Source: Fimbriimonadaceae bacterium
GTDB taxonomy: Bacteria > Armatimonadota > Fimbriimonadia > Fimbriimonadales > Fimbriimonadaceae
Direction: 5' to 3'
Length of the DNA: 64,000 nt
Assembly: GCA_019187105.1 (NCBI GenBank)
Contig: JABAQM010000001.1
Location: 744,001 to 808,000, forward strand
In this document: positions 18,765 through 32,947 of the stretch, in pieces
Layout of the letters: each line of letters starts with the position of its first letter
Position numbering within the stretch: the stretch's first letter is position 1
Program-made: the position numbers and the translations under genes
Notes under the pieces: model-generated
The model's input: only the letters and a program-made list of their open reading frames with translations
Database searches by the model: none
Told to the model about the DNA's origin: nothing

Positions 18765-19445
18765 ATGAGAGCAACGACAATTCAAGAAGTTCTGGTCGCG
18801 TTTCGCCTAAGTGGCGTGGCAGGACTGTTTCTGATGTGCGCCGCAACGGCAAACGCAAGTCTGGTAACTAACGGCAGTTTTGAGTCACCAGGATTTGCAG
18901 GCTCGCACCTCATCGTTCTGCCGGGCGACCCATCCATCACAGGTTGGACAATTGCTGGCGACGGGCGTGATATTGTTCTACACCATGCGCCCGACGTTGG
19001 GAACGCTACGGGAAACCCTACTTTCAACTTTGCTCAGGACGGTGATTACTACTTGGACTTGAGCGGTACCGGGTCGCCGCACGCGACTATCTACCAGGAC
19101 TTGACCACAGTAGTCAATACTTCGTACAAGCTGTCGTTTTACATTGGAGCGACCAATGAGAACGCCCCTGCACCAACGATAAATGTTCAGCTCGACGGTA
19201 CAAGTTCATTGTTGAACACAACTCTCACGCCAAGTGCTCCTGGCACGAACATCATCTGGACATTGCAAACGTTTAACTTTGTCGCCGATTCTACGACAAC
19301 TAGGTTGAGTTTTTGCGGGACCTCTGCTCTCGATGATAACGCTAGCTTTGTAGACAACGTGTCCGTTGAAGTAGTGCCTGAACCTGCTTCGCTGTTGGCA
19401 GTTTCAGCTGGACTCGCCGCGCTTTCGCGGCGTCGTCGCAGGTAA
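18765..19445 (+). CDS. PEP-CTERM sorted secreted protein
   Basis: 226 residues with a Sec signal peptide (hydrophobic ~15-31, ANA-S) and a C-terminal sorting tail VPEPASLLAVSAGLAALS followed by a run of arginines, the exosortase/PEP-CTERM signature. The middle begins LVTNGSFESPGF and has a jelly-roll DUF642-like pattern (SFYIGATNE, FVDNVSVE), as in carbohydrate-binding surface proteins. GAAAG lies before ATG 18765. The cognate exosortase is not in the window. Confidence 0.85.
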   Translation: MRATTIQEVLVAFRLSGVAGLFLMCAATANASLVTNGSFESPGFAGSHLIVLPGDPSITGWTIAGDGRDIVLHHAPDVGNATGNPTFNFAQDGDYYLDLSGTGSPHATIYQDLTTVVNTSYKLSFYIGATNENAPAPTINVQLDGTSSLLNTTLTPSAPGTNIIWTLQTFNFVADSTTTRLSFCGTSALDDNASFVDNVSVEVVPEPASLLAVSAGLAALSRRRRR

Positions 19446-19535: not shown

Positions 19536-19587
19536 CATGCATCGCTCCGTACGGTGGCAGATCGTCGCGTGCGCAGAGCGATGCATG
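19536..19587. repeat. Solitary half-copy of the GCATGCATCG palindromic element (copy E)
   Basis: CATGCATCGCT (19536-19546) and its exact inverse AGCGATGCATG (19577-19587) enclose a 30-base loop. The arms are identical to hairpin 1 of the elements at 29-31.7 kb, while the loop sequence is unrelated to theirs but has the same length. Outer GGGTGGG and CCAACCC flank it imperfectly. It lies between convergent genes; no second hairpin was found. Confidence 0.75.
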
Positions 19588-19702
19588 CCAACCCAACCAG
19601 GATGGTCGGGTAACCCATTTGCGCGGCAACCTGCAACCAATATCCGACTCCTGTCAAGATTCCTCCGGCGAGGGCCCCGTTCGGAATGACGGACTTCAGC
19701 CC

Positions 19703-28468: not shown

Positions 28469-28496
28469 TTGACCTAGGTACGACCTATGGTACGAA
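28469..28496 (+). promoter_or_regulatory. Promoter-like TTGACC-16-TACGAA at the head of the cassette-like array
   Basis: TTGACC (28469-28474) and TACGAA (28491-28496) are 16 bases apart, 18 bases before the first array gene (28515). It is the only good promoter candidate found for the four co-oriented array genes. Confidence 0.4.
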
Positions 28497-28514
28497 ACCG
28501 CCCGTGAAGACGAG

Positions 28515-28982
28515 ATGAACACTCACTGGTATGGAGCAAAATACGATCTCGCCACTTACTGCTCTGCTTGGGGCCTTGGGCTGGTCGCCCTCGTCGCAAT
28601 GTTCGCTGGTTGCTCTGGGAAGCCCGCACCATCAGTCGATAGCCAGAAAGTGGTTGGCTCCTACGTCCTATACAAAGTTGAACCCGTGTTCACTGTCGAA
28701 CGGACGAGTCAACTCCTCGTCGGCACGGAGATGCGAATCAACCAGGATTTGACGGGCTGGTTCTTCTCCCGGGATTACCAGGGCCGATTTACAATCGACG
28801 GTGATGTCCTCGTCTTCCATTGCGAGAAGTCAGGATTGTTATTCGGCAACCTTGATGGAACCGATAAGAGAACAAATCTGGCAAAGTTCCTACGACGGGC
28901 CAATGGCGAGTTGGTAATCAATGATTTAGATCAAGGGAGGGTCATTGAGAGGTGGCTATTTAAAAGGATGAGGACGTACTGA
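28515..28982 (+). CDS. Array gene 1: small lipoprotein of unknown function
   Basis: 155 residues. A long N-region is followed by a hydrophobic stretch and a lipobox-like MFAGC with the Cys at 33, so it is probably a lipoprotein. The mature part reads like a small lipocalin/META-type barrel (KVVGSYVLYKVEP, LTGWFFSRDYQGRFTIDGDVLVF). No family assigned. It is the first of four single-gene units that alternate with palindromic elements; codon use and AT content look different from the serC side. Confidence 0.65.
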   Translation: MNTHWYGAKYDLATYCSAWGLGLVALVAMFAGCSGKPAPSVDSQKVVGSYVLYKVEPVFTVERTSQLLVGTEMRINQDLTGWFFSRDYQGRFTIDGDVLVFHCEKSGLLFGNLDGTDKRTNLAKFLRRANGELVINDLDQGRVIERWLFKRMRTY

Positions 28983-29050
28983 GGCACCAGATGCTACTTG
29001 CCTGCTGCACAATGACGGACAACCCTTAACTAGATGCCGCCTCCACCAGT

Positions 29051-29310
29051 GGGCGGGTGGCCAGACTGTGGGGGTAGGGTGGCCGCAACCATTCTCTCCG
29101 CTCGGGTGGCATGCATCGCTTCGCCCTACTACTCGTGTCTGCCACAACTCAGCGATGCATGTGTTGGGACCCTTCAATGAACATGGTAGGGGTGAAAGTG
29201 GGAAGATGGAACATGCATCGGAGTCAGGTACGGGATCGCACGGAAGACGCTCATCCGATGCATACTCGGCCCATGGGCGGTGGGTGAGGAAGGTCGCGGC
29301 CACCCGCCCG
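29051..29310. repeat. Nested palindromic element A
   Basis: Outer perfect 12-bp inverted repeat GGGCGGGTGGCC (29051-29062) / GGCCACCCGCCC (29298-29309). Inside are hairpin 1 with arms CATGCATCGCT (29110-29120) and AGCGATGCATG (29151-29161), 30-base loop, and hairpin 2 with CATGCATCGG (29212-29221) and CCGATGCAT (29255-29263), 33-base loop. The left end carries a second outer repeat (GGGTGGCCGC at 29077-29086). The inner right arm is damaged (GATGCATACTCGG instead of GATGCATGCCACCCG). Confidence 0.85.
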
Positions 29311-29355
29311 CCTTATCCGGCGTGGCTCCCTGAAGACCAGGAGATTATCAGCTAA

Positions 29356-29787
29356 ATGACACACCGAAACATACTCCATTCGACGTGCGCCCTTTTTCTT
29401 GGTGCCGGCCTTACCTTCCAGTTGACCGGACGAGAACATGTAGACGAGCTAGTCGTTCGGAAGCTGACGGTCGTCGATCCTACTGGCAAGCCCCGAATCA
29501 TAGCGAATGTTGACGCTAGGGGGTCATCTTCAGTGATTCAAATGCGTGATCAAGATGGCAAGACTGCCATTACCATGCGCGAAAGCAGGCTGGGACCCGC
29601 CGTGTTCCTCCACGGTAAGGGTGACCATGGATTCATCCAACTGGAGTTACTAGGCAGGAACCCCGCGATCGCCTTAGAGAGTAACGACGGCAGGATGGCT
29701 TCCATACGATTTGGAAAGGATGGCTGGTATTTTGAGGTTGAGAACCATAAGGGTCGTAAACGTGAGTTTTCTTATGTATCCAAGTAG
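29356..29787 (+). CDS. Array gene 2: small secreted/anchored protein of unknown function
   Basis: 143 residues with an N-terminal hydrophobic segment (STCALFLGAGLTFQL). The rest consists of short beta repeats of the kind L-x-V-x-D-x-x-G-K-P-R-I-x-x-N/V (VRKLTVVDPTGKPRIIANV, VIQMRDQDGKTAITMRE, FIQLELLGRNPAIAL, MASIRFGKDGWYFEV), a pattern found in several uncharacterised bacterial beta-solenoid-like proteins. Starts 45 bases after element A; stops 3 bases before element B. Confidence 0.65.
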   Translation: MTHRNILHSTCALFLGAGLTFQLTGREHVDELVVRKLTVVDPTGKPRIIANVDARGSSSVIQMRDQDGKTAITMRESRLGPAVFLHGKGDHGFIQLELLGRNPAIALESNDGRMASIRFGKDGWYFEVENHKGRKREFSYVSK

Positions 29788-29790
29788 AGC

Positions 29791-30030
29791 GGCGGGTGGC
29801 CGCAACCATTCTCTTGGTTCGGGTGGCATGCATCGCTTCGCCCTAGCTACTCGTGTCTGCCACAACTCAGCGTTGCATGTGACGGGACCCTTCAATGAAC
29901 ATGGTAGGGTGAAAGTGGGAAGATGGAACATGCATCGGAGTCAGGTACGGGATCGCACGGGAGACGCTCATCCGATGCATGCCACCCGGCCCATGGGCGG
30001 CGGGTGAGGAAGGTCGCGGCCACACGCCCG
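29791..30030. repeat. Nested palindromic element B
   Basis: Outer repeat GGCGGGTGGCCGC at the left pairs with GCGGCCACACGCC (30016-30028), one mismatch. Inner 16-bp perfect repeat CGGGTGGCATGCATCG (29820-29835) / CGATGCATGCCACCCG (29973-29988). Hairpin 1 arms 29827-29837 and 29869-29879 (one mismatch, GTTGCATG), 31-base loop; hairpin 2 arms 29929-29938 and 29972-29981, 33-base loop. Loops nearly identical to those of A and D; right end like A. Confidence 0.85.
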
Positions 30031-30052
30031 TCAGGGACGCCTCCGCCAAAAC

Positions 30053-30838
30053 ATGAATACTCACAACGCGGCCATTTCTTTAAGAACTGGCAAGGCAAGC
30101 GAGGGTGCTGCAAGGGGTGGCACACGCACGAGTTTTACTATAAGCAAGATCCTAGAAATTGCCAGTGCCACCTCCATCGGCGAGACGGCGAATGTTTGGG
30201 CTTTTTCTGGGAAGGATTCAAATGCGATGGCTCGGCAGCTGAATGAGTCTCTGGTTGGCTTTGATTGCCGCTATCTGCCGGCGATTGAACGCACTGACGT
30301 GGAAGGTCATAGGGCGTCCACCTGCCTGTCAGTCGATTCCAGCATCTGGCCTTCCGCTCTCGATCAATTCGCAAATGACATGGTTGAGGGAACCTTTCTG
30401 GGGCTATGGGTAGGCAAGACTCAGGACCTTTTCGAGCACGAAGGTGACATTGATACCGTGATTGAACTTATCAGCCCATTCACTGACGGTGTGCCAAGCA
30501 AGATCGCGATAACTGTTGTTAACAATCGCTTCTTTCAACAAGCGCACTTGGAACGCCCTGAATGGCCCCCGTACCCTTTGACTTCGTTTGAGCAGGGGCC
30601 CGACTGGGAGTTCCTTGGCATCGATGTCGCTGATCGCTTTCTCCTTTCCGGTGTTTCCAACTGCGGAATTCAGTGGGGAGATGACGTGTTCGACCATCAG
30701 TTCGGATCTGCGCTGAATCCCTACCAATTGTTCGAGTCAGTACAGATTGCTGAGTCGTTTGCTGAGGCGATTGCACTTGCGGTGCCGGATCACGCACCAT
30801 TCTTGCTGTACCGCTTGTATGCCTTTCGATCAGATTGA
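30053..30838 (+). CDS. Array gene 3: hypothetical protein
   Basis: 261 residues, acidic, no signal peptide or membrane helix. It has a mixed alpha/beta composition with an aromatic-rich stretch (HLERPEWPPYPLTSFEQGPDWEFLGIDVADRFLLSGVSN). No family recognised. Start 22 bases after element B, stop 50 bases before element C. AT-richer codons than flanking housekeeping genes suggest foreign origin. Confidence 0.6.
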   Translation: MNTHNAAISLRTGKASEGAARGGTRTSFTISKILEIASATSIGETANVWAFSGKDSNAMARQLNESLVGFDCRYLPAIERTDVEGHRASTCLSVDSSIWPSALDQFANDMVEGTFLGLWVGKTQDLFEHEGDIDTVIELISPFTDGVPSKIAITVVNNRFFQQAHLERPEWPPYPLTSFEQGPDWEFLGIDVADRFLLSGVSNCGIQWGDDVFDHQFGSALNPYQLFESVQIAESFAEAIALAVPDHAPFLLYRLYAFRSD

Positions 30839-30888
30839 CTTGCATCGCCAAAGTGGGGGAACTGGACTAACTCGGGTCGGGCGGCGGG

Positions 30889-31165
30889 GCGGGTGGCCGC
30901 GGCCATCCTTTGTAAACAATGGGTGGCATGCATCGCTTTTGGCAAAAGCTATGCCTTCACCCCGAGCAGCGATGCATGTTCTGGCGACCGATGACCACCT
31001 CGCGAGTAAGCTGGCCCCATGATTGCAGGGCCGAATCATGAGTCCGTGGGATCATGCATCGGGGAGTTCGATGGGCGGACATCTGTGGCGTCACCCGATG
31101 CATGCCACCCGATCTTAGGGGAGGAACGAGGAAGATTGCGGCCACCCCCCGCGGCCACACGCCCG
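30889..31165. repeat. Nested palindromic element C (divergent loops)
   Basis: Same arms as the others: inner 15-bp repeat GGGTGGCATGCATCG (30921-30935) / CGATGCATGCCACCC (31096-31110); hairpin 1 arms 30927-30937 and 30968-30978 with a 30-base loop; hairpin 2 arms 31053-31062 and 31095-31104 with a 32-base loop. Loops and the 74-base spacer are unrelated to those of A, B and D. The right end is compound: a D-type end (GATTGCGGCCACCC) directly followed by a B-type end (GCGGCCACACGCCCGTCAGG). Confidence 0.85.
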
Positions 31166-31194
31166 TCAGGGAAGACTTGCAAGGGTGTTTGTTA

Positions 31195-31434
31195 GTGAGT
31201 AGTGAGACTGGATTGGTTCGGAAACGCTATCTGAAAAGCCTTGCAATAGCCTTAGCTGTTACAGCTGTTGTAACAGGGTCACTCATCCTCAACCCAGGTG
31301 GTACCCCGGTCTGGCGGATGTCAGCACGGGATCAAGAACTTGCTTACGACGCGTTAAGCGGTATTGCTCCAACGGCATTCATGGTTACCTTTCTCGTCGC
31401 TTACCTTTTCTGTCGCAGGAATCCTCGAAGGTGA
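31195..31434 (+). CDS. Array gene 4: small membrane protein
   Basis: 79 residues from GTG 31195, with AAGGG about 9 bases upstream; the frame runs back into element C but that part is repeat sequence. Two hydrophobic segments (YLKSLAIALAVTAVVTGSLIL and TAFMVTFLVAYLFC) flank a short loop; ends in RRNPRR. No family recognised. Starts 29 bases after element C, stops 36 bases before element D. Confidence 0.55.
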   Translation: MSSETGLVRKRYLKSLAIALAVTAVVTGSLILNPGGTPVWRMSARDQELAYDALSGIAPTAFMVTFLVAYLFCRRNPRR

Positions 31435-31470
31435 CAATGCTGTGTCATGGGCGCCGGGTGGGAGGGGCTC

Positions 31471-31711
31471 GACGGGTGGCCGCAACCATTCTCGCCGTTC
31501 GGGTGGCATGCATCGCTTCGCCCTAGCTACTCGTGTCTGCCACAACTCAGCGATGCATGTGACGGGACCCTGCAATGAACATGGTAGGGTGAAAGTGGGA
31601 AGATGGAACATGCATCGGAGTCAGGTACGGGATCGCACGGGAGACGCTCATCCGATGCATGCCACCCGATCTTAGGGGAGGAACGAGGAAGATTGCGGCC
31701 ACCCGCCCGAC
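31471..31711. repeat. Nested palindromic element D
   Basis: Outer perfect 13-bp repeat CGGGTGGCCGCAA (31473-31485) / TTGCGGCCACCCG (31693-31705). Inner 16-bp repeat 31500-31515 / 31653-31668. Hairpin 1 arms 31507-31517 and 31549-31559, 31-base loop; hairpin 2 arms 31609-31618 and 31652-31661, 33-base loop. Left part and loops match B; the right ~50 bases match C instead. Ends 9 bases before the stop of the convergent MacB-type gene. Confidence 0.85.
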
Positions 31712-31720
31712 GGGAGGCAC

Positions 31721-32947
31721 CTACTCTCTCCGAAGGGCAACGATCGGATCCAGCTTCGCGGCGCTGATCGCCGGATAGAGGCCAAAAACCACCCCGATCA
31801 GGGCTGAGAAAATGGACGCGGCGATGGCGGCTTGGACCGGAAACGGCGTCGGCAAGCCCTCTGGTGAGGGCCACTTGACCGAAGCGGTTGCCAGGGTCAC
31901 GGCCAAGCCGAGCAGCCAGGCGATGCCCATCCCGATGAGGCCCCCGACCAGGCTCAGCGTGGCGGATTCCACCAGGAATTGCGTGAGCACGGACGCTTGC
32001 TTGGCCCCAACCGCCTTGCGGAGTCCGATCTCCTTGGTTCGCTCGGTGACGGAAACCAGCATGATGTTCATGATGCCGATGCCCCCGACGAGGAGGGAGA
32101 GGGCCGCGATGGCGGCGAGTACGATGCCGGCCACGCCGAAGACGCGGTTGATCACGCCCAGCAGCGACTCGCGCGAGTCGACGCGGTAAAGCACCCGGTT
32201 ACCCGATCGCTGCATAAGCGCCTGCCACACCGCATCCATCGCCTGGGTTACGGGAACGCCAGGTCTTGGACGGGTGGTGATCATGGAGACCGTCTCCCCG
32301 CCGATCCACTTATCTTGGGCTGTGGTGATGGGCAGGAGGACGTCGCGGGCGGTGGTCTGGCCCATGATGTCGAGCCGTTCGAGCACGCCCACGACCTGCA
32401 GCGTGATGCCGCTCATGGTGAGGTACTGGCCCAGCGCGTTGCCATCGAAAAGCTGATCACGGATCTCCTCTCCGACGAGGCAGACGTTGGCCCGCTGGTC
32501 CATGTCGGACTTTTCCAGGTAGCGCCCAGCCACGAGGTTAAGCCGGTTGAGTTTGGAAAAATGCTCGTTGCTGGCGAAGACGCGAATGCTCGAGACCTCG
32601 CGGTCCCCCCGGACGACCTTGGTCGCCGGCACCTGGACAATCGGCGCGGCCACGTCGAGGACGGAGACGTGGTCCATGAGGTAGGTCACGTCGTCGTTGG
32701 TAAGACCCTCGATGCCTCCCTGGGTCTGTCCCCGCTCACCCCGGCCGCGATCGTAAGCGATGATGATGGTATCGGACCCGAGCTTCTTGAACTCGTAAGT
32801 CATGAAGTACGTGAACCCGTTCGAGACCATCACAATGAGCGTCACACTCATCACGCCGATGATCACGCCGAGCATTGTCAGGAAGGCCCGCAGCTTGTGC
32901 AGCCGCAGCATGTCGAGCGCAATCCGAAAGCTCTGAAGGAGGTTCAC
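31721..32947 (-). CDS. ABC transporter permease, MacB/FtsX type
   Basis: 408 residues: one N-terminal helix (LTMLGVIIGVMSVTLIVMV), a large periplasmic MacB_PCD domain, then three C-terminal helices of the FtsX domain (GIVLAAIAALSLLVGGIGIMNIMLVSVTERTKEIGLRKAVGA is diagnostic, read in outline). Such permeases form tripartite efflux or mechanotransmission systems with an HlyD-type adaptor, present directly upstream, and a separate ATPase, absent here. GTG start follows the adaptor stop without a gap. Confidence 0.9.
   Translation of the reverse strand: MNLLQSFRIALDMLRLHKLRAFLTMLGVIIGVMSVTLIVMVSNGFTYFMTYEFKKLGSDTIIIAYDRGRGERGQTQGGIEGLTNDDVTYLMDHVSVLDVAAPIVQVPATKVVRGDREVSSIRVFASNEHFSKLNRLNLVAGRYLEKSDMDQRANVCLVGEEIRDQLFDGNALGQYLTMSGITLQVVGVLERLDIMGQTTARDVLLPITTAQDKWIGGETVSMITTRPRPGVPVTQAMDAVWQALMQRSGNRVLYRVDSRESLLGVINRVFGVAGIVLAAIAALSLLVGGIGIMNIMLVSVTERTKEIGLRKAVGAKQASVLTQFLVESATLSLVGGLIGMGIAWLLGLAVTLATASVKWPSPEGLPTPFPVQAAIAASIFSALIGVVFGLYPAISAAKLDPIVALRRE

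Follow-up and report, generated by a model that had tools for sequence, protein, structure and literature searches.

A canonical REP arm is 20-50 nt long and has a loop of 2-5 nt. REPINs, the REP doublets that form hairpins (Bertels and Rainey 2011, PMC3116915), consist of inverted palindromic arms, are non-autonomous and extragenic, number dozens to hundreds and are tied to a Y1 transposase of the RAYT (REP-associated tyrosine transposase) group, together with which the repeats diversify (PMC3116915, PMC6006769). Published REPs carry a GT[AG]G foot (PMC6006769), and a change of the guide from GTAG to GTGG moves the cleavage by TnpAREP to CC (PMC8266576). Further systems for comparison are the double palindromes ppf 607 of P. 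putida and pfs 4255 of P. fluorescens and, among the TIRYTs, the TIRtrons and TIR repeats (PMC3733652); in the TIRtron type, long repeats with partial self-complementarity enclose a RAYT-like gene and are also dispersed as singles or dimers (PMC3733652). IS200/IS605 elements combine a Y1 enzyme with a foot and hairpin at sharp, asymmetric ends and make no target duplication, and integron cassette arrays carry one small gene per folding element.

The locus compared here occupies positions 28515-31711 of a window of 64,000 nucleotides, the whole stretch of DNA analysed, from a Fimbriimonadaceae bacterium. The alternation of genes and elements given in a preliminary description of this DNA was found as stated: four genes, all on the + strand, alternate with four nested palindromes of 240-280 bp (A-D) in the order gene 1, A, gene 2, B, gene 3, C, gene 4, D. 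The genes begin about 25-50 bases past an element and stop 3-70 bases short of the next one. The features are listed below by window position.

28515-28982, + strand: gene 1, 155 aa, orphan with a lipoprotein-like N-terminus; GC 0.51 versus 0.59 for the window
about 29052-29308: element A, an inverted pair of long-loop REP-like arms inside an outer frame; right inner arm damaged
29104-29164, + strand: left arm of element A, GGGTGGC-ATGCATCG-N34-CGATGCAT
29356-29787, + strand: gene 2, 143 aa, orphan
29791-30028: element B, beginning 3 bases past the gene 2 stop
30053-30838, + strand: gene 3, 261 aa, orphan
30888-31163: element C, core diverged, right outer end doubled
about 31195-31434, + strand: gene 4, 79 aa, orphan, probably encoding a membrane protein; start codon uncertain
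about 31471-31707: element D, B-type core (165/167) and C-type right end (37/38)
31721-32947, - strand: gene for a MacB/FtsX-type permease at the border of the islet; ~13 bases separate its stop codon from the end of element D
19536-19592, - strand: vestigial single arm of the same family as the arms of A-D, immediately downstream of the low-GC3, PEP-CTERM-like gene at 18765-19445

The outer inverted repeat (GGCGGGTGGCC/GGCCACCCGCC), the inner repeat (CGGGTGGCATGCATCG) and the two hairpins previously reported for each element are all present, the right inner arm of A being damaged (ATGCATACTCGG). Alignment of all copies revealed the arm as the repeated unit, composed of the foot GGGTGGC, the stem ATGCATCG, a loop, CGATGCAT and then GTT. 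A full element is two inverted arms within the outer frame, and a half element is one arm plus one outer end. With few exceptions, the 21 arms have the foot in front of the stem; the foot contains GTGG, consistent with the GT[AG]G guide of REPs, and the elements end in CC, their right end reading ..CCACCCGCC. The arm loops are 31-39 nt long, mostly 32-35, and vary in sequence among copies; since loops of this length lie outside the canonical short arm, we call the elements REPIN-like and not canonical REPINs. Compared with shuffled sequence, both D (z -4.4) and C (z -3.0) fold far better. Two base pairs on the loop side of the stem covary (G-C/C-G and U-A/G-C/A-U): 0/500 shuffles reach the covariation score, 94% of cells are paired, 14 cells are double-changed compared with 6.1 in shuffles, and a permutation test of the arm covariation gave p < 5e-5. 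Because these loop-side pairs covary though the loops vary, the arm is taken to be kept as a folded single strand. Rfam returned no match for the array at a permissive threshold, nor for eight other element regions at gathering scores.

An array of this layout, with single strands that fold, could in principle be a divergent integron in which A-D are the attC sites of an unknown integrase. We consider this extremely unlikely, since the attC core (GTTRRRY/RYYYAAC) is found in none of A-D, as had already been observed, four tyrosine recombinases score no higher than 121 bits against the 265-bit integron-integrase cut-off (TIGR02249), two of these four look XerC/XerD-type, and the frame is shared with a RAYT. 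The elements also differ from those of integron arrays, which carry the attC core and go with IntI, in being dispersed as half copies. The preliminary description had proposed a new cassette or recombination system with its enzyme encoded elsewhere; a mobile family with the enzyme encoded elsewhere is supported by the RAYT that shares the foot and frame, recombination between elements shows in the mosaic D, and the genes in between are low-GC orphans. An integron-like or site-specific cassette system is not supported, as there is neither an attC core nor an integron integrase and the enzyme inferred here, a RAYT, is a single-strand Y1 transposase.

Six Y1-transposase (PF01797) matches are present in the genome. 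The one at C1:3302414-3302956 belongs to the REP-associated tyrosine transposases: it scores 93.5 bits against NF047646 (REP_Tyr_transpos; cut-off 80), matches TnpArep (PDB 4er8) and has an HVH motif, as expected of an HUH-type enzyme. Its flanks read, in order, GGCGGGTGGC, a spacer, GGGTGGC with the hairpin CCGGGTTCGCGCAGCTAACCCGGG, the gene, the inverted hairpin with GCCACCC, a spacer and GCCACCCGCC, so that the resident RAYT has the same foot and outer frame as A-D and a different stem. The ATGCATCG stem flanks none of the six Y1 genes. The RAYT-type arm is also dispersed as single copies with the same outer frame, and several RAYT/REP pairs coexist in the genome. Two RAYT units of 712 bp (C1:3302344-3303055 and 3304141-3304852) are 100% identical; they begin exactly at the GGTGGC-hairpin and end exactly at GCCACCCGCC, their flanks differ on both sides, and one of them adjoins RHS sequence. 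The left junctions are unambiguous, and the right junction of the second copy, which sits in a 127-base overlap of the contig ends, is provisional; as this overlap falls within one RAYT copy, the chromosome probably closes there. The sharp borders of the identical copies define the element ends, indicating that the outer frame is such an end and that the unit moved recently. Hairpins of their own (GGAGCGCAGGCGTCTCGCCTGC; GGGAGTGCGCGAGCTTGCTCGCGC) flank at least two more of the Y1 transposase genes, and two Y1 transposase genes lie near GACCCC..GGGGTC repeats.

The A-D family is scattered elsewhere in the same genome, a point on which the preliminary description was silent. By sequence searches, the 3.3 Mb genome contains 13 copies of the 16-mer CGGGTGGCATGCATCG (reversed control, 0), and 21 arms were listed at about ten loci, either single or as inverted pairs. 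Paired arms (two REPs inverted) are found in A-D and at loci 908, 1147010 and 2595699, and single arms or half elements at loci 301443, 389264, 865700 and 2426435; many copies outside the array are single arms or adjoin larger or ordinary genes. Scattered, non-coding sequences of 240-280 bp with terminal inverted repeats could in principle be ordinary MITEs belonging to a double-strand DDE transposon whose terminal repeats are GGCGGGTGGCC. This is very unlikely, since these termini also enclose a gene for a Y1 transposase, solo arms exist, and no convincing shared word flanks A-D as a target-site duplication. Scattered MITEs with target duplications had been named beforehand as an outcome speaking against a cassette system; the scatter is there, and convincing target duplications at A-D are not.

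A, B and D are close copies of each other, with cores that are 95-99% identical, and the core of C has diverged; neither this nor the mosaic build of D is mentioned in the preliminary description. Four elements in 2.7 kb, three of them near-identical, arose in 0/200,000 simulations of random transposition, indicating that three young copies within 2.4 kb require a local process, be it duplication, conversion or a crossover at the arms. The mosaic element D is the exact product expected if an element of B type crossed over with one of C type and the intervening DNA was deleted, and gene conversion fits equally. The right-end flank GCCCGTCAGGGA is common to C and B. An empty-site test at the MacB-like flank found no synteny in 19 same-family genomes, and no same-genus genome was found.

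The four genes have a GC of 0.51-0.52 and a GC3 of 0.44-0.60, compared with a GC3 of 0.74-0.84 for their neighbours. Comparison of the genes bore out the earlier view that they are unrelated to one another, and searches of Pfam, NCBIfam, PADLOC and PHROG gave no convincing family for any of them, in line with their description as having no recognisable family. Gene 2 has no relative in 85 family genomes, and gene 3 none in a search of the genome contig collection; one weak match of gene 3 (25%, E 3e-4) lies on a Nitrosospira plasmid, directly after an RHS gene and overlapping it. AlphaFold models from single sequences were unusable (pLDDT 49 for gene 2 and 33 for gene 3). Genome-wide, low GC3 (<0.62) is found in 12/17 hand-picked neighbour genes of elements versus 4/46 in the background (p about 3e-6). 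Elements elsewhere are often near RHS fragments, with large and ordinary genes also among their neighbours. At 862000-865800, 2423000-2427000 and 389449-393995, low-GC orphans and broken pieces of RHS genes are grouped with elements, and these may be orphan RHS tips and immunity genes. At C1:1147008-1151000, a ATGCATCG element and an arm of the CCGGGTTCGCG type, which is that of the RAYT family, enclose three low-GC orphan genes.

One orphan gene per element in a single orientation, together with the low GC3 beside elements genome-wide, the fit of D to a B-type by C-type crossover and the GCCCGTCAGGGA flank of C and B, would agree with a cassette array, in which recombination at the palindromes (single-strand excision by RAYT, or RecA crossover) adds or removes each gene together with an element as one unit; such an array would be integron-like in function and unrelated to integrons. 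However, isolated copies are often half elements or stand beside ordinary or large genes, arms of the RAYT group in relatives adjoin ordinary genes, gene conversion explains the mosaic equally well, attC and IntI are both lacking, and a search covering genes 2 and 3 found no second location for either, which makes such an array unlikely. It is likewise improbable that REPIN-like doublets bound exchangeable single-gene units and that cutting or recombination by RAYT shuttles orphan genes, perhaps of the RHS immunity type; if true, this would be a cassette system based on a single-strand transposase, not an integrase. A gene-palindrome-gene array alone is insufficient to call a cassette system, and the association of these elements with low-GC genes that are orphans or linked to RHS can be tested.

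We consider it likely that A-D are REPIN-like non-autonomous elements spread by RAYT, and that the array is a low-GC orphan islet with local multiplication and recombination of the elements. For the chemistry, the mobilisation in trans and the order of events in the array, we infer the following course. RAYT, a Y1 single-strand tyrosine transposase, would act in trans on two inverted arms in an outer inverted frame, probably recognising on single-stranded DNA the GGGTGGC guide foot and the hairpin formed by the ATGCATCG/CGATGCAT stem with its long loop, and would cut at the outer ends directly after ...CCACCCGCC. The elements may have settled after gene ends in a low-GC orphan islet, and may then have increased in number on the spot, with recombination or conversion between copies, as the mosaic D suggests. 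Because the resident RAYT combines the same foot and frame with a different stem, its action on the ATGCATCG-stem elements would follow from foot and frame. Against the RAYT-linked, REPIN-like reading stand the lack of the ATGCATCG stem beside all six Y1 genes, the loops and size, which are outside canonical REP, the clustering, which needs local duplication or conversion, and the copy number of about ten loci, which is not that of a high-copy REP or REPIN family.

Like REPINs, A-D have inverted palindromic arms, are non-autonomous and extragenic and have a tie to a Y1 RAYT; they differ in their arms of about 65 nt with the 31-39 nt loops, the extra outer inverted frame, the GGGTGGC foot, the smaller number of loci and the other stem carried by the resident RAYT. 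The likeness to the TIRtron type lies in the framing of the RAYT gene and the dispersal of its repeats, whereas the sequences are unrelated, and here foot, hairpin and outer end make up an ordered frame common to two stem families. With IS200/IS605 ends they share the Y1 enzyme, the foot and hairpin, the lack of target duplication and, in the RAYT copies, the sharp asymmetric ends; however, the enzyme here belongs to the REP-associated subgroup and the elements are symmetric doublets. The elements add to the RAYT-linked repeats a family whose build, with long loops and a double frame, is unusual, in a group apparently little described for REPs: the two REP surveys checked make no mention of Armatimonad, and in the literature searched we found no paper joining Fimbriimonad and REPs.

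RAYT homologues (about 34-50% identical) are present in 22 other genomes of 85 in the family. Many RAYT relatives in other genera (38-50% identical) are flanked by GGGTGGC/GGGTGCC feet and hairpins of other sequence; long-loop hairpins stand beside the relatives L119, L130, L138 and L141, and the frame GCCACCC..GGTCACCC..GGCCACCCG beside L127 and L130. The exact ATGCATCG arm was absent from 85k genomes (its own genome left out) and from IMG/VR, and a DNA search of 60 relatives for the arm found none, so that the stem family is private to the lineage as far as searched. A lone 14-mer match in one genome (G032) was taken as chance. The foot, the frame and the enzyme group are shared with relatives, unlike the stem. 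In a relative belonging to another genus (G066), several loci carry single long-loop arms of the form GGGTGGCACTGGT-N-ACCAGTG followed by ATT, and two of these loci are separated by 330 bases.
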